A stretch of DNA of 16,581 nt from Candidatus Omnitrophota bacterium (GTDB lineage: Bacteria; Omnitrophota; Gorgyraeia; 1-14-0-20-64-10; JACQQZ01): positions 1-16,581 of the forward strand of contig JACQQZ010000132.1 of NCBI GenBank assembly GCA_016206755.1, written 5' to 3'. The position numbers and the translations under genes were made by a program. Below are positions 1 to 11,358 of this stretch, in pieces. Under the pieces are notes generated by a model. The model did not search any database. It saw nothing but the letters and a program-made list of their open reading frames with translations, and was not told the DNA's origin. Positions within the stretch are counted from its first letter, which is position 1; every line of letters begins with the position of its first letter.

Positions 1-615
1 TACGGCTGGTGCGGCCGCGGTGTCGCCACGCGTGCGCGCGGGGCAGGGGCCAACGTCGTTGTCTGCGAAGTCGACCCGGTTCGGGCGCTGGAAGCGGTGA
101 TGGACGGCTTCCGCGTGATGCCGATTGCGCAAGCCGCTCAAATCGGGGATCTTTTTGTGACGGTGACGGGTGATCTGCACGTCATCACGGCGGCTGAATT
201 CTCCAGGATGAAAGATGGAGCGATTGTGGCCAACAGCGGCCACTTCAACGTGGAGCTGGATTTAGAAGGATTGAAGAAAATTTCAAAAAGCGTCAAGACG
301 CTCCGACCCGACGTTCAAGAGTACGAACTCAAGAACGGCCGCCGCGTCGTCGTATTGGCCGAAGGGCGTCTGGTGAACTTAAGCTGCGCCGAAGGACACC
401 CGGCCGCCGTGATGGACATGAGCTTTGCCAACCAGGCGCTGGCCGCCGAGTGGATCTTCAAGAACGCCGGCAAGCTCGAGAAGAAAGTTTACAAGCTTTC
501 CAATGAAATTGACCTGCAGATTGCGCGGCTCAAGCTCAAGTCGCTGGGAATCAACATGGATACATTGACTGCCGAGCAGGAAAAGTATCTGTCCAGTTGG
601 GAAGCCGGCACCTAA
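1..615 (+). CDS. ahcY: Adenosylhomocysteinase, C-terminal part (5' end outside window)
   Basis: Hydrolyses S-adenosylhomocysteine to adenosine and homocysteine in the cytoplasm, relieving product inhibition of SAM-dependent methyltransferases. The frame is open from base 1, and 204 residues precede the TAA at 613-615. The first residues (YGWCGRGVA) are the glycine-rich NAD-binding loop of the Rossmann domain. They are followed by the family signature around [14 protein letters not shown], the NSGHFNVE block, and [27 protein letters not shown] (seen in pieces), which covers the conserved GRLVNL and GHP motifs. The protein ends in SSWEAGT, without the longer Lys/Tyr tail of eukaryotic and many proteobacterial enzymes; short-tailed bacterial and archaeal forms are known. 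Its stop codon lies inside a 33-nt repeat copied from the 3' end of lptG (see 613-645). Identity is very secure; only the catalytic N-terminal half is missing. Confidence 0.96.
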
Positions 616-645
616 GCCAGCCGGCGGCGAAGCAGCAGGATTCCC
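613..645. repeat. Left copy of 33-nt direct repeat (relic of lptG 3' end)
   Basis: This stretch matches 1361-1393 at 32 of 33 positions; the one difference is G at 620 versus A at 1368. The right copy is the coding 3' end of lptG. Read on the minus strand, the left copy would also encode the LptG tail [10 protein letters not shown] and end in TAG. It begins exactly at the ahcY stop codon. The pair brackets the toxin-antitoxin-like genes at 710-1275. Confidence 0.9.
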
Positions 646-664
646 CCAGGATACGAATAGAGAT

Positions 665-693
665 TTGACAAGCTTCTTGTCCAAGCATAGCAT
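665..693 (+). promoter_or_regulatory. Sigma-70-type promoter with operator-like palindrome for the TA pair
   Basis: A consensus -35 TTGACA (665-670), a 17-nt spacer and TAGCAT (688-693, 4 of 6 to TATAAT) form a plausible promoter. Transcription would start near 700. A perfect 6-bp inverted repeat, GACAAG (667-672) CTT CTTGTC (676-681), overlaps the -35 element, as expected for an autoregulated toxin-antitoxin operator. This argues against the TTG at 665 being the start codon of the downstream gene. Confidence 0.55.
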
Positions 694-709
694 AGTTGCA
701 TCCGGAGCT

Positions 710-1057
710 ATGATGCCTGAAGGTAGCAGCCCAAAAACAGGCAAACTCATTGGGTTTTCTGACAAGGATGGCATTCAGCTCTGGCTATCCCCGAGTGCAT
801 TGCATCATATCCAACACGATCATTGTATCCACGACCCCGTTTCATTTATTCAGCACGTGTTTGACAAAACACTGGCAATTGTAGAAAGTAAAACGAAAGT
901 CGGAACGCGTATCTATTATTCTGAACACTCAAAAGAAAAAAGTCTTTACAAAGCAGTAGTTGCTAATGTGCATGACCAAAGGATCAAGACAGCTTTTATT
1001 TCAGACGAAATTAAAGGAGGAGGCGTAATATGGATAAGCCCCAGCCTGATGAGTTGA
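710..1057 (+). CDS. Small putative toxin, possibly BECR-fold nuclease-like, partner of DUF2283 antitoxin
   Basis: A 115-residue soluble protein. The frame is open back to a TTG at 665, but that TTG is part of a consensus -35 box. ATG 710 or 713 is therefore preferred; GGAG at 704-707 is best spaced for 713. The central region contains LSPSALHHIQHDH (about residues 26-38), rich in His. The C-terminal half reads YKAVVANVHDQRIKTAFISDEIKGG, which looks to me like the strand-rich end of phage or barnase/EndoU/ColicinE5/RelE-like (BECR) nuclease domains. That family call is a resemblance, not a proven match. The next gene overlaps its 3' end by 28 nt and is a DUF2283 protein, a family often found as the antitoxin half of small TA pairs. 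The gene is AT-richer than its neighbours, which suggests transfer. It could also be a non-toxic hypothetical protein. Confidence 0.6.
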   Translation: MMPEGSSPKTGKLIGFSDKDGIQLWLSPSALHHIQHDHCIHDPVSFIQHVFDKTLAIVESKTKVGTRIYYSEHSKEKSLYKAVVANVHDQRIKTAFISDEIKGGGVIWISPSLMS

Positions 1058-1275
1058 GATTTGCATATGACAATGAAAGCGATGTTCTCTACGTTTCAAT
1101 CGGGGAGCCGAAAGAGTCGGTCAACAAGGTATTGGACAATGGAGTAATCGTTCGATACAAACCGGATACGCGGCAGGTAGTCGGTCTTACTATCATCGAT
1201 TTTTCTCATACGTTTGCTTCAACCCACCCTAGAGCAGTGGCCCCAGGTTTAAAGGCAGAGCTAATTCCTGCATAG
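1030..1275 (+). CDS. DUF2283 family protein, putative antitoxin
   Basis: An 81-residue protein matching the DUF2283 pattern: FAYDNESDVLYVSIGE at the N-terminus, then an acidic linker, GVIVRYKPDTRQVVGLTIID in the middle and a hydrophobic end of the domain at DFSHTF. Members are small single-domain proteins commonly encoded beside DUF4258 or other RelE/BECR-like toxins, where they are presumed antitoxins; biochemical proof is sparse. The start is well supported by AGGAGG at 1015-1020, nine bases before the ATG. The gene lies inside the last 28 nt of the upstream gene in another frame, so the two are translationally coupled with the toxin-like gene first. No DNA-binding domain is visible. If the palindrome at 667-681 is an operator, the complex or the partner protein would have to bind it. 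Confidence 0.8.
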   Translation: MDKPQPDELRFAYDNESDVLYVSIGEPKESVNKVLDNGVIVRYKPDTRQVVGLTIIDFSHTFASTHPRAVAPGLKAELIPA

Positions 1276-1359
1276 TAAAGTCTTGTTTTCCTGCTGATGT
1301 CCTTCTGGTAAGACCAGTCAAAGAAATGCTGTTCTCAGGTCGGGGGGCACTGGCAAGCT

Positions 1360-2463
1360 TTAAGCCAACCGGCGGCGAAGCAGCAGGATTCCCAATCCCC
1401 CGAAAATCAGGTTGGCCCCCCAGGCGGCCAATGCCGGAGGCAGCATCCCTCCTTTTCCGGCAGCCGTGAAGATGGCTTGTGCGGTGTAGAAAGCCAGGGC
1501 AATTCCGATGGCGGTTCCCATACCCATCAGCGTCCCTCCGCGCGAAGAGCGCACCGCCAGCGGCGTCCCGATGAGAATGATCACAAAGCTGGCAAACGGA
1601 TAAGCCAGCTTTGTCTGCAGCTCCACCTGTAATTTTTGCGTCGCTTCCGCGCCGGAGGGCCCCATGCGCTCAATGTATTTTTTAAGCTCCCGGAACGACA
1701 TCGCCTGAGACTGTTGGTCCGCCTTCATTAAAATTTCCGGGGATTCGCCGATCGGAATGATCTTTCGTTCAAAGCCGATTTTCTTCCCGAACGATTTTCC
1801 TTCCGAATCAAATCTCAAAACAGCGCAGTTGAAGAATCGCCACGAAGACCCGGTCCATTCCGCCCGCGCGGCGGTGATTTTGCGTTTGAGTTTTAAGTCC
1901 GGTCCGTGCTCGAGAATGATGACGTCTTCGAGAACTTTGCTGCGCGGGTCGAAAGATTTGGCATAGAGCAGCGTGTGCCCGGTGCCGTACACGGCCAAAG
2001 ATTCAATAGGCCGCTGTTCGCGCGGCGGGCGAGTTGGGTCCGGCGGGCGCTCCAGATAATCGTCCTTCAAAATTTGAAGCGTCAAAACGGCGCCGGGTGT
2101 GAGCTGTTCGTTGGCGTACAACACGAGGCCGCTGACCAGAAGTCCCGCCGCCAAAAGAGGCCGGACGATTTGCCAGGGGCCCAGACCGGAGGCCCGCATC
2201 GCGACCAGCTCCTGATTCTTATTGAGATTGCCCACGGTGTAGAGAACGGCCATCAGGCATGCAAAGGGGGCGACTTGGACAAAAATGACAGGGATCATTG
2301 CGCCGTAGTATTTCGCCAGGATGCGCAGAGGGACTTTGAATCTTAGGATTTCGTCCAGATGTCCAAACAGATCAATGACCAAATACAGAACCAAAAAGAG
2401 ACAAAAACACCAAATCAGCGGCCCGATCAATTGTCGGACAGTGTAGCGGTCTAAAATTTTCAT
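1360..2463 (-). CDS. lptG: LPS export ABC transporter permease LptG (YjgP/YjgQ family)
   Basis: An inner-membrane permease of the LptB2FG transporter, which extracts lipopolysaccharide from the inner membrane and feeds it to the LptC/LptA bridge. The protein has 367 residues, the usual family length. The N-terminus MKILDRYTVRQLIGPLIW leads into TM1. TM2 lies around YYGAMIPVIFVQVAPFA, followed by the coupling-helix sequence MRASGLGPWQIVRPL and TM3. A periplasmic beta-jellyroll of about 140 residues follows. Three C-terminal helices begin at LAYPFASFVIILIGTPLAVR and end in [12 protein letters not shown] 2463 is chosen because it gives the family N-terminus and lies two bases after the lptF stop; a longer upstream open frame runs inside lptF. 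It is the last gene of comF-lptF-lptG. The companion genes lptA, lptB and lptC are not in the window. LptF versus LptG is assigned by gene order and similarity and could be swapped. Confidence 0.92.
   Translation of the reverse strand: MKILDRYTVRQLIGPLIWCFCLFLVLYLVIDLFGHLDEILRFKVPLRILAKYYGAMIPVIFVQVAPFACLMAVLYTVGNLNKNQELVAMRASGLGPWQIVRPLLAAGLLVSGLVLYANEQLTPGAVLTLQILKDDYLERPPDPTRPPREQRPIESLAVYGTGHTLLYAKSFDPRSKVLEDVIILEHGPDLKLKRKITAARAEWTGSSWRFFNCAVLRFDSEGKSFGKKIGFERKIIPIGESPEILMKADQQSQAMSFRELKKYIERMGPSGAEATQKLQVELQTKLAYPFASFVIILIGTPLAVRSSRGGTLMGMGTAIGIALAFYTAQAIFTAAGKGGMLPPALAAWGANLIFGGLGILLLRRRLA
1361..1393. repeat. Right copy of 33-nt direct repeat (intact lptG 3' end)
   Basis: The copy partner of 613-645 (32/33 identical). 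It encodes the last residues of LptG on the minus strand, with the TAA stop spanning 1360-1362. The single difference from the left copy is synonymous (TTG versus CTG, Leu). Confidence 0.9.
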
Positions 2464-4386: not shown

Positions 4387-5133
4387 ATGGCCAGACCTTA
4401 TCCAAATCCCCCAGTCCGAGAAGCCTTGTGTGAAATATATTTTTCCGGATCCCGATGGGACCCGGCAACGCAAGGCCAGTTTTACGAACGAATCAAGAGT
4501 GATTTTCCAGTCAGGCAGCAAATTTCAGAGTTTTTTGCCGAGTTCAACATATCGGAACAAGAACGGGGGACGCGTGTCTCGGAATCGAAAGCGCGCATGC
4601 GCTATGGCCGGACTGACGGTTCGCGACTGGTCCAGTTGGCACCGAATCTTCTGGTGGTCAATCAGCTCCAGCCCTACCCCCATTTCGGAGATTGGCGGCC
4701 GGTGATAGGGGCCATGGCGGCGATCTACGCTGAACTCGCCGTGCCGAAGACTGTCCAGCGGGTCGGCTTGCGCTACATCAACGAGATTGCCGTTCCCTTA
4801 GCTGGCGAGTTCAAGCTGGAAGAATATTTTACAGTTTACCCGAACATTCCTGAATCGGTGGGCGGGAAACACGGGCCGTACATGCTGCGCCTTGAAATGC
4901 CTACGGCCCATGAAGGACATAGTTTGGTGATTACGTTTGCCATGGGGCCGCGGAAGGATCCGGAAAAATTGGTGTTCACGCTGGATTTGTACGACACCTT
5001 TGCCCAGCCATTTCCGTTCTCGACGGCCGAGATCGAACGACGAGTAGATGAATCCCATGCGGAGATCGAACGAGTATTCGGGAATTTCTCGACGCAAAAG
5101 TTGAAGGCTTTGTTTGACAAGGAGAGCCCATGA
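4387..5133 (+). CDS. TIGR04255 family protein
   Basis: A 248-residue cytoplasmic protein of a sporadically distributed family with no known activity. The recognisable family start is YPNPPVREALCEIYF, followed by a W-D-P segment, FPVRQQ, then a core with LVVNQLQPYPHFGDW and VQRVGLRYINEI. The C-terminal part ends in a charged helix with ESHAEIERVFGNF, as usual for the family. Length matches the family (about 250). No signal peptide, transmembrane segment or nucleotide-binding loop is visible. The stop codon overlaps the next start (ATGA at 5130-5133), so it is translationally coupled to the small protein and PIN toxin downstream. No Shine-Dalgarno precedes ATG 4387, which may be leaderless. Scattered distribution and the TA partner suggest an accessory, possibly defence-related role; that is inference. 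Confidence 0.82.
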   Translation: MARPYPNPPVREALCEIYFSGSRWDPATQGQFYERIKSDFPVRQQISEFFAEFNISEQERGTRVSESKARMRYGRTDGSRLVQLAPNLLVVNQLQPYPHFGDWRPVIGAMAAIYAELAVPKTVQRVGLRYINEIAVPLAGEFKLEEYFTVYPNIPESVGGKHGPYMLRLEMPTAHEGHSLVITFAMGPRKDPEKLVFTLDLYDTFAQPFPFSTAEIERRVDESHAEIERVFGNFSTQKLKALFDKESP

Positions 5134-5360
5134 CCGGCATTGCAATCCAGAGCGAAGAGTATGTATGGGTGGCTTCCAGAGAATTGGTTGAGCACATCAT
5201 CCACTTGTTATCGGTAGATCAAGGATCAAGGATGACTGCTGTTTATCCGCTTTATCACCAAGCCACCCTCAGCTCTTTGCGCGGCTTGGGGAAAGAAATT
5301 TGGAAGGGAGTAGACGCCAAGGATTACGTGGATCGGCTACGAGATGAATGGGCGGGTTGA
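5130..5360 (+). CDS. Small protein, candidate antitoxin of the downstream PIN toxin
   Basis: A 76-residue protein that I do not recognise as a named family. It starts at ATG 5130, overlapping the upstream stop as ATGA, with AAGGAG about eight bases before it. The C-terminus, VDAKDYVDRLRDEWAG, resembles the short acidic or amphipathic tails of antitoxins that wrap around VapC or RelE toxins. The N-terminal half lacks an obvious ribbon-helix-helix or AbrB/MazE DNA-binding motif. It precedes and overlaps the PIN gene by 17 nt, the standard antitoxin position. Function is inferred from position. Confidence 0.6.
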   Translation: MTGIAIQSEEYVWVASRELVEHIIHLLSVDQGSRMTAVYPLYHQATLSSLRGLGKEIWKGVDAKDYVDRLRDEWAG

Positions 5361-5802
5361 GTCTTTTCTGCAAGGCAAGCGCGCGGTGTGCCTCGATTCC
5401 ATGGTAATTGTTTACTTCATTGAGGAAAACCCTGCTTATCTGCCGATTCTGGGACCTATTTTCAACCGGATTGATGCCGGCACCCTTAGCGCATCAACAT
5501 CCTTCATTACTCTTACCGAAGTGCTTGTTAAGCCGCTGGAGAAAGGCCGGTTCGATCTGGCTCAGCAGTATAGAGATCGTTTACTTGGCAGTACCGGCTT
5601 TACCTTGTTTCCAGTCGAGGAAACCATTTCCGAAACAGCCGCTCGCCTTCGGGCTCGTTATGGCACAACATTGAGGGTTCCAGATGCCATTCAGATTGCC
5701 ACGGCCATCGAATGCGGCGCACAGGCATTCCTCACCAACGATGAAAAGTTAAGCCGTGTTCAAGAGATTGAGATTGCTATTCTTTGTAACATGGTGGTCT
5801 GA
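5344..5802 (+). CDS. PIN domain-containing protein, VapC-like toxin
   Basis: A 152-residue single PIN domain, predicted Mg2+-dependent ribonuclease. The acidic residues are in place: D18 in CLDSMVIVYFIE, E59 in ITLTEVLVKP, D114 in RVPDAIQIATAI and D133 in LTNDEKL. Length is slightly above the usual 120-145 for VapC. The start at 5344 overlaps the preceding small gene by 17 nt; the next in-frame ATG (5401) would remove the first catalytic Asp, so 5344 is favoured. VapC toxins cleave tRNA or rRNA when released from their antitoxin. Here the module is extended by a TIGR04255 gene at the front of the operon. A catalytic role is likely; the target cannot be read from sequence. Confidence 0.87.
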   Translation: MNGRVESFLQGKRAVCLDSMVIVYFIEENPAYLPILGPIFNRIDAGTLSASTSFITLTEVLVKPLEKGRFDLAQQYRDRLLGSTGFTLFPVEETISETAARLRARYGTTLRVPDAIQIATAIECGAQAFLTNDEKLSRVQEIEIAILCNMVV

Positions 5803-8797: not shown

Positions 8798-9171
8798 TGA
8801 TGGATGATGCGAAAATCTCCGGTGAGGTCAAGAGGATTTTTGAAGAAGTCAAAACGCTTCTGAATGTCCCTTTTGTGCCTCGAGTTTTCCGCGCGATGGC
8901 CGCCGACCCGGAGCGGCTGGCTGCGACGTGGGAGCGGATGAAAGAGGTGATGATGACCGGTGAAGCGGACATCCGGACAAAATTTGTCGCGGCGTATTCG
9001 GCCGCGTTGAGCAGCAACAACCGTTACTTCGCCAGCGCCTACCGCGCGGCGCTGCAACGGTTGGGCGCGACGGAGCAGGAGATCGAAGAGCTCAAGCAGG
9101 TGGTGGAGCTAAACCGGGAACTGGATCGCTCGACATCCCGCCTGAATCTTCGTCCGGACCTGGAGCCATGA
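8797..9171 (+). CDS. AhpD/carboxymuconolactone-decarboxylase-like small protein without catalytic cysteines
   Basis: A 124-residue all-helical protein. The order is VKRIFEEVKTLLNVPFVPRVFRAMAADPERLAATWERMKEVM, seen in pieces, then IRTKFVAAYSAALSSNNRYFASAYRAALQRLGATEQEIEEL. This is the layout of AhpD-like/CMD proteins: a V-P-x-V-F-R-x-x-A-x-x-P segment and the helix that normally carries CxxC. Here the equivalent stretch (SSNNRYFASAY) has no Cys, and I see none in the whole protein, so AhpD-type disulfide chemistry is unlikely. Function unknown; the fold call is by pattern only. GGTGG before ATG 8797 can serve as ribosome-binding site. Its stop overlaps the next gene's start (ATGATG at 9168), so the two are coupled. 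Confidence 0.6.
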   Translation: MMDDAKISGEVKRIFEEVKTLLNVPFVPRVFRAMAADPERLAATWERMKEVMMTGEADIRTKFVAAYSAALSSNNRYFASAYRAALQRLGATEQEIEELKQVVELNRELDRSTSRLNLRPDLEP

Positions 9172-11210
9172 TGCGGCGCCCGTCCCGTTCAAAAATCAAA
9201 GCGTCCGATGTCCGTGCGGGTGGAAAGACGGAAGCCGCCCCCGAAATTCCGGAGCTGCAGGCGTTGGTCGCCCCCCCCGCGCTTTGTCATGATCTTCCCC
9301 AAGCCCTCAGCCAGGAATGGCTTGTCACCAACGGCATCGGCGGCTACGCTTCCTCGACGATACTGGGGGTCAATACGCGCCGTTACCACGGGCTTTTGGT
9401 GGCCGCGACGCGGCCCCCCGGGGGGCGTGCGGTGATGCTGGCAAAAGTGGAAGAGACCCTTGTGACTCCGGGGGCGCGCCATGATTTGTCCACCAACCGT
9501 TATCACAGGGTGATTCATCCGGAAGGGTACCATTATCAGGAAGAGTTTCGCATGGATCCTTGGCCGGCTTTTATTTACCGCGTGGCCGGCATCATTCTTG
9601 AAAAGCGGATTCGGATGATTCCCGGCGAAAATACCGTTTTGATCACCTACCATTTGAAAGAATCTCCGGGAGCCATTGAGCTCATCGTCCGCCCGTTGTT
9701 GGCCTGCCGTGATTTCCGGTGGGTTTCCCAGGAAAACCCCAGCTTTCAGACGCGCTTCGAACAAGGTCCAGGCACGCTCATTCTTCGGCCCTACGAAGGT
9801 TTGCCGGCGCTGGCCTTGCACCATGGGGCGGAATTATTTGAGCCCGCCGCGTATTGGTACAAAAATTTCGAGTATCCTGAAGAGGCCTCCACCGAAACCG
9901 CCTATCACGAAGATCTTTACAGCCCGGGCCAGCTCGTCTATTTGCTGCGGCCCGCGGAAACTGCGCATCTGCTGGCTTCACTGGACAAAACGCCTCCCGC
10001 GCACTTGGAGCATCTGAACACGCGCCTGACGGAGCACCGCTCGCGCATTCTGCAGAGAATCCAATCCAGACCGGCGGGCCCCTGGACGAAGCGTCTGATG
10101 GCGGCCGCCGAGAGCTTTTTTGCCAAAGCCAACGATGGAACTCGGCATCTGTTGTCCGGTTATCCGTGGGGAACGGCTTGCGGACGAGAGGCGCTCATGG
10201 CTTTGCCCGGACTCGCCTTGTCGACGGGGCAGCCGGAGATGGCGCGGGAAATCCTTCAAAATTTAATCAGCAATTGCCGGGATGGATTGCTTCCGGTCCG
10301 GTTTACCGAAGAAGACGCGTCTCCCGAATACGATTCGGTGGACGCATCGCTGTGGCTTTTTTGGGCAACGGACCGCTATTTGCGCGCCACCGGCGACCTG
10401 CGTTTCGTCAGCCGCCGGTTGTTGGATGTGCTCATGGACATCGTGGATTACTACGTCCAAGGCACGCAATTCCACATCGTCATGGATCAGGATGGATTAA
10501 TCACCACCGAAGGGGAAGAGCTTCCGCTGACCTGGATGGATGCCCGCGCCCAAGGCCATGCCGCGACCCCCCGGCAGGGGAAAGCCGTCGAGGTCAATCT
10601 GCTTTGGCACCACGCCTTGATGACGATGGCGGATTTGGGAGAGCGATTTAACTTGCGCCTGCGCCGCCAATACGCGCGGTTGGCCAAATTGGTTCGATCG
10701 AATTTCGTCCGCTCTTTTTGGGATGATCAGCGGAATTGTTTGTACGATGTGGTGCATCCGGCTCGGCCGGATGGCGCCGTCCGTCCCAACCAGCTTTTGG
10801 CTTTGAGTTTGCCTTACCCGGTTTTGAATCGCCAGCAGGGCAGGGCTTTGCTGGAGACGATGTCGCGGGAATTGGCGACCCCGCTCGGTTTGCGCTCGCT
10901 TTCCCCGTCCGATCCGGCTTACCAGCCGCAGCCGGGAATACATCATCAGGGATGTATTTGGCCTTGGTGGTGGGGCCATTACCTGACAGCGTATCTTTCG
11001 GTTTACGGAAAGACGGCAACGACACACGGTTTTGTGCGTCAACAGCTCCAGCAGTTTCACGATGAGCTGAATCGCATCGGACTTTTGGATTCTGTCCCGG
11101 AGCTTTTCAGTCCTCAGCCCCCCCATACCCCGGCCGGATTACCCTCCCATATGCTTGCCACTTCCGAGATACTACGCATCATACATGATTGTAATATAAT
11201 AGATTTATAA
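9168..11210 (+). CDS. Amylo-alpha-1,6-glucosidase / glycogen debranching enzyme-like glycosidase
   Basis: A 680-residue cytoplasmic enzyme of the bacterial glycogen-debranching type (GDE_N plus GDE_C, GH133-like). The N-terminal beta-sandwich domain starts at about residue 45 with the signature EWLVTNGIGGYASST and NTRRYHGLLVAA. The C-terminal (alpha/alpha)6 barrel from about 300 includes YPWGTACGREALMALPGL (332-349), YDSVDASLWLFWA, TWMDA with D458, TPRQGKAVEVNLLWHHAL, and HHQGCIWPWWWGHY (592-605). Family members hydrolyse alpha-1,6 branches left on glycogen or limit dextrins. The usual DWGRD block reads ACGRE here, so substrate or rate may differ. ATG 9168 overlaps the upstream stop; ATG 9171 is equally possible. 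No other glycogen genes are in the window. The C-terminus and stop codon run into an AT-rich repeat. Confidence 0.88.
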   Translation: MMRRPSRSKIKASDVRAGGKTEAAPEIPELQALVAPPALCHDLPQALSQEWLVTNGIGGYASSTILGVNTRRYHGLLVAATRPPGGRAVMLAKVEETLVTPGARHDLSTNRYHRVIHPEGYHYQEEFRMDPWPAFIYRVAGIILEKRIRMIPGENTVLITYHLKESPGAIELIVRPLLACRDFRWVSQENPSFQTRFEQGPGTLILRPYEGLPALALHHGAELFEPAAYWYKNFEYPEEASTETAYHEDLYSPGQLVYLLRPAETAHLLASLDKTPPAHLEHLNTRLTEHRSRILQRIQSRPAGPWTKRLMAAAESFFAKANDGTRHLLSGYPWGTACGREALMALPGLALSTGQPEMAREILQNLISNCRDGLLPVRFTEEDASPEYDSVDASLWLFWATDRYLRATGDLRFVSRRLLDVLMDIVDYYVQGTQFHIVMDQDGLITTEGEELPLTWMDARAQGHAATPRQGKAVEVNLLWHHALMTMADLGERFNLRLRRQYARLAKLVRSNFVRSFWDDQRNCLYDVVHPARPDGAVRPNQLLALSLPYPVLNRQQGRALLETMSRELATPLGLRSLSPSDPAYQPQPGIHHQGCIWPWWWGHYLTAYLSVYGKTATTHGFVRQQLQQFHDELNRIGLLDSVPELFSPQPPHTPAGLPSHMLATSEILRIIHDCNIIDL

Positions 11211-11221
11211 AGTATATAAAA
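11192..11221 (+). repeat. Left copy of 30-nt AT-rich direct repeat
   Basis: TAATAT, two variable bases, then 22 bases identical to 11291-11312 (TAGATTTATAAAGTATATAA followed by AA). It contains the last codons and TAA stop of the debranching gene. Confidence 0.85.
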
Positions 11222-11358
11222 CTGCTAGTCTAACTTCTCACATCCTGTTTATTTATTATCTGTTACATATTATACATAACTTTAATATTGTAGATTTATA
11301 AAGTATATAAAAATTTCTGGATTTTGGGGTATACTTAGGACTAGGAGGAAAGTCCTAA
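11211..11358. other. AT-rich intergenic leader of the pilin operon
   Basis: About 150 nt without a gene, much more AT-rich than anything else in the window. It holds the second copy of the 30-nt repeat, a quasi-palindrome at 11262-11280 (GTTA/TAAC arms with a central TATTATA), several -10-like hexamers, and the hairpin at 11333-11360. There is no GC-rich terminator for the upstream gene. Confidence 0.6.
11283..11312 (+). repeat. Right copy of 30-nt AT-rich direct repeat
   Basis: 28 of 30 bases match 11192-11221; the two mismatches follow the shared TAATAT. The copies are 91 bp apart. It ends 18 nt before a TATACT at 11330, where an UP-element or regulator site could lie. Confidence 0.85.

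Follow-up and report, generated by a model that had tools for sequence, protein, structure and literature searches.

A window of 16,581 nt, contig C102 of a draft genome (G000) of a Candidatus Omnitrophota bacterium, was analysed in this study, and its first part holds two convergent housekeeping genes, ahcY and lptG, separated by a short insert that carries a toxin-antitoxin (TA)-like gene pair. The genome comprises 1.05 Mb in 165 contigs and is 80% complete. The 3' part of ahcY lies on the plus strand at positions 1 to 615, the contig beginning within the gene, and lptG lies on the minus strand at 1360 to 2463, where PF03739 matched with 288.9 bits and TIGR04408 with 229.3 bits (cut-off 240). 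The insert of 715 nt (646 to 1360), whose final base already belongs to the lptG stop codon as its first letter, is enclosed by two direct copies of the lptG tail, both read on the minus strand: a left copy at 613 to 645 and a right copy at 1361 to 1393, the latter being the tail of the intact lptG gene. The copies are identical at 32 of 33 positions, with a start-to-start spacing of 748. This repeat is real, and it seems to be an instance of a broader pattern in which genes of the DUF2283 family are bracketed by direct repeats.

The left copy starts at the ahcY stop codon (TAA, 613 to 615). The sole mismatch between the copies, at 620/1368, is a synonymous change (Leu CTG/TTG) when both are read as LptG tails, and the longest exact run that they share is 25 nt (621 to 645). 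Read on the minus strand, the left copy is an LptG tail ending in TAG (612 to 614) and the right copy ends in TAA (1360 to 1362); the TAG is weak evidence when taken alone, because base 612 is the third base of an ahcY Thr codon. A search of the 1,045,256-base assembly with up to three mismatches returned no third copy of the lptG tail, and neither the reverse strand nor a backwards control gave any. Chance origin of the repeat is excluded, since this search finds just these two places. Alignment and genome search thus confirmed the 33-nt repeat with 32 matches and a synonymous difference that a sequence-only reading of the window had proposed, and the left copy reads as an LptG tail with a TAG, as stated there. 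That reading had also described the insert as AT-richer than its flanks and devoid of an integrase and of terminal inverted repeats, and both statements hold. The GC content is 0.443 in the insert against 0.58 in the ahcY part and 0.555 in lptG; no integrase-like or recombinase open reading frame (ORF) or Pfam match occurs in 613 to 1393; and the terminal inverted repeats that, together with a short fixed target duplication, mark a classical transposon are absent at the insert. The low GC content is not exceptional, because 62 of 1282 overlapping 715-nt segments, taken from the window and 20 other contigs, were equally low or lower.

The insert encodes on the plus strand a PBECR2-like, toxin-like protein of 114 aa (713 to 1057) and an antitoxin-like DUF2283 protein of 81 aa (1030 to 1275; PF10049, 29 bits against a cut-off of 23). 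The two genes overlap by 28 nt, and the same overlap is found in two relatives (L123 and L124). The TA-like pair of the sequence-only reading is supported. A longer ORF of the toxin-like gene starts at a TTG at 665. The toxin-like protein itself has no Pfam match; PF18810 (PBECR2, a family of RelE/barnase-like nucleases) is present in four of its 52 relatives from an alignment-based search, and the L123 relative matches it below the cut-off. Its predicted model, with a predicted local distance difference test score (pLDDT) of 86.9, matched a BrnT RNase toxin at a probability of 0.82 and E 0.37; no structure matched the model at E 0.001 or better, and solved structures searched by sequence gave three matches (best E 0.13), none of them usable. 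Nothing usable was returned for the toxin-like protein from plasmids and phages, for its 78% identical relative P0002 (on a 116-kb contig) from viral contigs, or for the window from Rfam at gathering scores, a tRNA search and PADLOC. The relatives with a named source are three, from Candidatus Omnitrophica, so that the class probably belongs to this phylum. Judged by these comparisons, the two genes probably form a TA-like pair of an RNase-fold, PBECR2-like protein and a DUF2283 protein, in which the DUF2283 partner overlaps a nuclease-fold-like gene as in a PBECR2/DUF2283 type II pair; we infer the activity of both from this likeness. A promoter-like site, TTGACA-17-TAGCAT (665 to 693, plus strand; 10/12 consensus matches), lies upstream of the pair, and it is no evidence of function because the region holds two such sites against a mean of 1.1 in shuffles. 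The possibility that the repeat is a part of the toxin family itself was rejected: the relatives L123, L124, L126 and L127 lack a repeat, L125 lies in dispersed repeats and L128 has one. At this last place (also L291, G261:C17) the toxin-like gene is much shortened, to a 74-aa ORF with its middle gone, between identical 83-nt repeats.

A family search found three DUF2283 places in this genome, and all three lie between direct repeats, made of the lptG tail, an aldolase 3' region and a whole tRNA-Pro gene. On contig C112 (L154), a DUF4258/DUF2283 pair and about 1 kb more lie between two identical 76-nt tRNA-Pro (CGG) genes at 1100 to 1175 and 2813 to 2888, 1.7 kb apart. On contig C82, two copies of a class II aldolase 3' region, 52 nt long and identical at 46 positions, flank a 119-aa gene and a DUF2283 gene, and the stop codon of the left-hand ORF falls inside the left copy, as the ahcY stop does in the window. 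A different cargo is found on contig C58, where two successive HEPN modules each lie between copies of a region upstream of a presumed lysS gene, named by eye; the HEPN genes come from the family search and their nucleotidyltransferase partners were recognised by eye. A copy of this presumed lysS upstream region precedes each of the two modules (L159, 1760 to 3345), so each module may have acquired a promoter. The sequence-only reading had suggested a search for the same 33 nt beside other cargo; this gave nothing in the genome itself, and the wider form of the idea, other gene ends beside TA-type pairs, did hold. Five other TA-type places lacked such repeats: three PIN genes (contigs C123, C79 and C144), the C110 HEPN gene and a PIN gene in the window itself; a PIN place on C32 stood outside this repeat check. 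The PIN gene of the window belongs to a second TA-like pair (5130 to 5802), a 76-aa ORF and a PIN-domain protein without flanking repeats.

DUF2283 occurs in 73 of the 384 genomes of the class. We read 108 DUF2283 loci, of which 19 near contig ends were excluded and 89 were eligible. A bracket was defined as a two-copy direct repeat with a score of at least 24 and a spacing of 300 to 1300, and the same copy-number filter was applied to loci and controls. Brackets enclosed 14 of the 89 DUF2283 loci, whereas of 6042 control positions taken from the same stretches 84 were enclosed (binomial p 3e-11), with repeat lengths of 27 to 83 nt among the 14 strict hits. The counts were 10/75 against 71/5113 (p 1e-7) after removal of 17 loci nested in long open frames, 8/73 (p 8e-6) when the nested loci and our own genome were both left out, and 10/75 against a background of 31/1747 (p 9e-7) with controls taken outside ORFs of 150 codons. 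The count without our own genome is given because the thresholds were chosen after the window and locus L155 had been seen. At ahcY loci of other groups, 42 of 12004 positions were bracketed, and the same strict test bracketed none of 1905 positions in 20 whole contigs of our genome (125,712 bases), which showed nothing beyond the palindromic repeats of L139 and L147 and, with scores of 18 to 19, weaker matches in L133 and L144. The tRNA-Pro locus is not among the 14, its spacing of 1713 exceeding the strict limit; the 19 excluded loci include L212 (a 128/128 repeat) and L216 (35/36), and three places below the Pfam cut-off (G183, G113:C35 and G005:C93) were left out.

Seventeen of the 108 DUF2283 genes are nested in the long open frame (1145 nt or more) of a second gene, often an apparently giant one; the frame around L228 is 7173 nt long and is read antisense. 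In L198 (936), L200 (759), L202 (783) and L228 (711) the spacing of the repeats is divisible by 3, so a DUF2283 pair may lie within a giant gene and leave its reading frame intact. One third of the control positions (1153/3530) also lie in such long frames. Outside the strict count, L272 and L273 (G134 and G249) share 4030 identical nt between bins of different families, which is probably a binning or contamination artefact.

The differences between repeat copies were then examined by codon, in a main set of six coding repeats from the 14 strict hits and in three repeats inside giant frames; the identical copies of L228, L229 and L291, and L268 and L294, to which no frame was assigned, were omitted. 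Synonymous changes made up 21 of the 33 differences in the six coding repeats against an expected 23% (p 1e-6), distributed as 1/1 in the window, 4/6 in L155, 2/2 in L281 (response regulator), 2/3 in L282 (dnaK), 7/13 in L296 and 5/8 in L293. Without L293 and L296, whose frames were chosen by eye, the figure is 9/12 (p 1.7e-4), and our own genome alone gives 5/7 (p 0.01); the three repeats inside giant frames gave in contrast 5/20. The copies in coding sequence therefore look like diverged alleles rather than a gene end and its drifting duplicate, since changes with such a bias most likely arose in working genes, i.e., in different lineages, and a drifting spare need not have spared the amino acids.

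The dnaK locus bears on the order of events. Five genomes, four from family f10 plus G238 from f51, have a DUF2283 pair downstream of dnaK, with Hsp70 confirmed by Pfam in L282 only; by-eye readings place dnaJ after the pair in L280 and L287, and an HEPN-type gene before it in L292. Of these five loci, only L282 has a further dnaK tail after the pair, and the end of this tail is variant. It is absent from L285, a congener of L282, though the pair is present there. To judge from this comparison, the L282 repeat apparently stems from an exchange that took place after the pair had arrived. Such a course agrees better with neighbour-anchored recombination than with duplication at arrival.

The relatives available for the ahcY-lptG junction are those of the order, with one other genome from the same family and none from the same genus in the collection; a search for lptG in the genome contig collection returned nothing usable. 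Six order relatives have both genes convergent on one contig, with gaps of about 3000, 1064, 307, 2520, 3474 and 1916 nt, uncertain by a few nt because the lptG ends were taken from alignments. The nearest relative, G001, has an LptG 63% identical and an AhcY 75% identical. The lptG-tail repeat was found in none of the six, the best direct-repeat scores being 10 to 16 against 30 in the window. The contents of the junction vary: G004 has a PIN/FitA-like pair beside lptG, G006 has a nucleotidyltransferase/HEPN pair beside lptG (the HEPN match at its cut-off), and no recognisable TA pair was found in the gaps of the remaining four of the six. G005, with ahcY and lptG on separate contigs, has nucleotidyltransferase-like and HEPN-like genes after ahcY by eye. 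A common ancestral gene in the gap was also considered and dropped; the proteins of G001, G004, G005 and G006 share a stretch of at most 66 aa, and their best match to the window has an E of 0.079. On this comparison, the junction appears to be a site of changing contents.

These results can be accommodated if the repeat is the scar of an exchange anchored by homology in a flanking gene and closed by an illegitimate join on the other side, a reading to which we give nearly an even chance. A segment with the PBECR2-like/DUF2283 pair would have been exchanged into the convergent junction, with homologous pairing in one of the flanking genes (lptG in the simplest case) holding one end of the incoming DNA and the opposite end being joined without homology. 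The two lptG tails would then be slightly diverged alleles, one resident and one imported, and the outcome would be a 748-bp unit between direct repeats with ahcY and lptG intact. The order of events, which copy was imported and how the ends were joined can only be suggested from the present arrangement. The repeat enrichment at DUF2283 genes, the synonymous bias, the contrast of L282 and L285 and the varying contents of the junction are the grounds for this reading. One option of the sequence-only reading, that the pair came by illegitimate recombination from a related strain in which it lay next to lptG, is supported. Several observations weigh against it. No bracket was found at 75 of the 89 DUF2283 loci, including all six from order relatives (L163 to L167 and L295), and the p-values assume independent loci, while the five dnaK loci are orthologous. 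The copies are identical at tRNA-Pro (76/76), L291 (83/83), L229 (51/51), L228 (27/27) and C58 (30/30), as a fresh duplication would look, and the allele argument at the window consists of one base and a stop codon. Neither an empty site nor a donor was found, the order relatives carrying other genes in the gap, and ahcY and lptG touch in none of the six. The simple history first proposed for the window, a tail-to-tail ancestor with overlapping stop codons and an empty site with a single repeat copy in relatives, is therefore not borne out, the gaps spanning about 307 to 3474 nt.

The same identical copies and the varying repeat lengths would suit a true long target duplication, in which the insertion itself duplicates its target, and restriction-modification genes provide a precedent with long, variable duplications (PMC3874152, PMC3031569). 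The synonymous bias at gene ends (21/33) would however be unexpected for a drifting spare copy, and L285 shares the pair with L282 without a second dnaK tail, so that we regard such a duplication as rather unlikely. Gene 3' ends and tRNA genes are classic integration sites. Both are used here, which would fit an att-type, site-specific integration at the lptG 3' end with a recombinase acting in trans and the cassette as a tiny non-autonomous element; the sequence-only reading, too, had envisaged an att-type event at a gene 3' end. Three matches to tyrosine recombinases occur in the genome, of which two are open, but the match on C9 looks XerC/D-like by eye, the third (L153, G000:C68) is a C-terminal match with two stops, and none lies in the insert. 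When repeat pairs were compared with shuffles, the likeness of the lptG and aldolase repeats was reached by 21 of 500 shuffles, a weak sign in favour, whereas the other five pairs were reached by 161 to 496 of 500 and have no common core; repeat lengths vary from 27 to 83 nt among the strict hits, and a promoter region is used as a repeat too. A shared att core was thus dropped as a candidate, with one weak pair of six, and integration of this kind appears improbable.

The left copy could also stem from an unrelated templated event beside ahcY, guided by the microhomology TAAGC and independent of the pair; TAAGC does follow ahcY in G003, one of the relatives, and at 4 of the counted ahcY loci. 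The frequency of brackets at DUF2283 genes is however about eleven times that at control positions, which makes such an independent origin very improbable. An assembly or binning artefact might be suspected in a fragmented metagenome bin of 165 contigs and 80% completeness, with a longest exact match (25 nt) near short assembly k-mers. We would hardly expect it, for the two copies are not quite identical and differ by a synonymous change, and a like anatomy is found in other genomes, including L229 from a single-contig genome.

Nobusato 2000 and Furuta 2010 are said to be the founding papers on long target duplication. Restriction-modification genes insert with long, variable target duplications (PMC3874152, PMC3031569), a mode first seen in Helicobacter pylori (PMC3874152, PMC3031569, PMC1643837, PMC4978471), and our footprint resembles it: small addiction-type cargo, long chromosomal direct repeats of variable length (33 nt here and 27 to 83 nt among the strict hits) and no transposase of its own. 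The differences from those accounts are a TA-like cargo of about 0.7 kb and coding copies that differ mainly at synonymous sites. Homology-facilitated illegitimate recombination has been proposed for the effector-immunity arrays of Vibrio (PMC5361080), with, as may apply here, one homologous anchor, one illegitimate join and remnants of displaced gene 3' ends. Those arrays are secretion-system clusters exchanged within and between species, whereas the present case concerns convergent housekeeping genes of uncultured bacteria, with no donor identified. Similarly, a ParE/ParD-like module linked to MaOC1 of Microcystis aeruginosa lies between two direct repeats beside a gene end (PMC7935541). Its repeats differ in being identical, 152 bp long and supplied with inverted repeats, starting 14 bp past the stop codon of the gene, and the available text of that source does not describe them as a gene tail. 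Among the titles and abstract openings listed from open-licence papers, none describes TA pairs flanked by gene-end repeats as a broader pattern. Our locus also recalls a direct repeat of a gene 3' end with the gene kept whole, but differs by having no integrase, a cargo of 715 nt and no core common to the sites of the genome from the integrative elements to which this likeness refers. Some integrative elements restore a gene 3' end in this manner.

Other repeats were noted in the window and genome. An AT-rich 49-nt direct repeat (11173 to 11221 and 11264 to 11312, 84%) is a second gene-end duplication in the window, its first copy overlapping the 3' end of the ORF at 9168 to 11210. The palindromic repeat of about 66 nt (AGCGGTACCGTTTCC...), seen at 43 to 108 and 4978 to 5043 of L139 and at 10 to 78 and 1163 to 1230 of L147, occurs at several places of the genome and once sits just 3' of a XerC/D-like gene.

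It is still an open question how small chromosomal TA pairs can move with no transposon, and the repeats at about one sixth of the DUF2283 genes, against about one in 70 control positions, provide a measurable footprint of it. This footprint makes the question testable, because the anchor gene can be read from the repeats and a donor lineage may be indicated by their synonymous differences, and it links these pairs to the long target duplications of restriction-modification genes, another addiction-type cargo. We put forward, as a doubtful extension, that the DUF2283-type pairs of the class may be minimal mobile units of about 600 to 750 bp without a mobility gene, which would move between lineages by homology to whichever gene lies next to them, take the end or promoter of that gene with them and settle harmlessly in essential junctions (lptG, dnaK-dnaJ, lysS, tRNA-Pro); each insertion would be reversible through its repeats, so that addiction would directly help to keep the unit.

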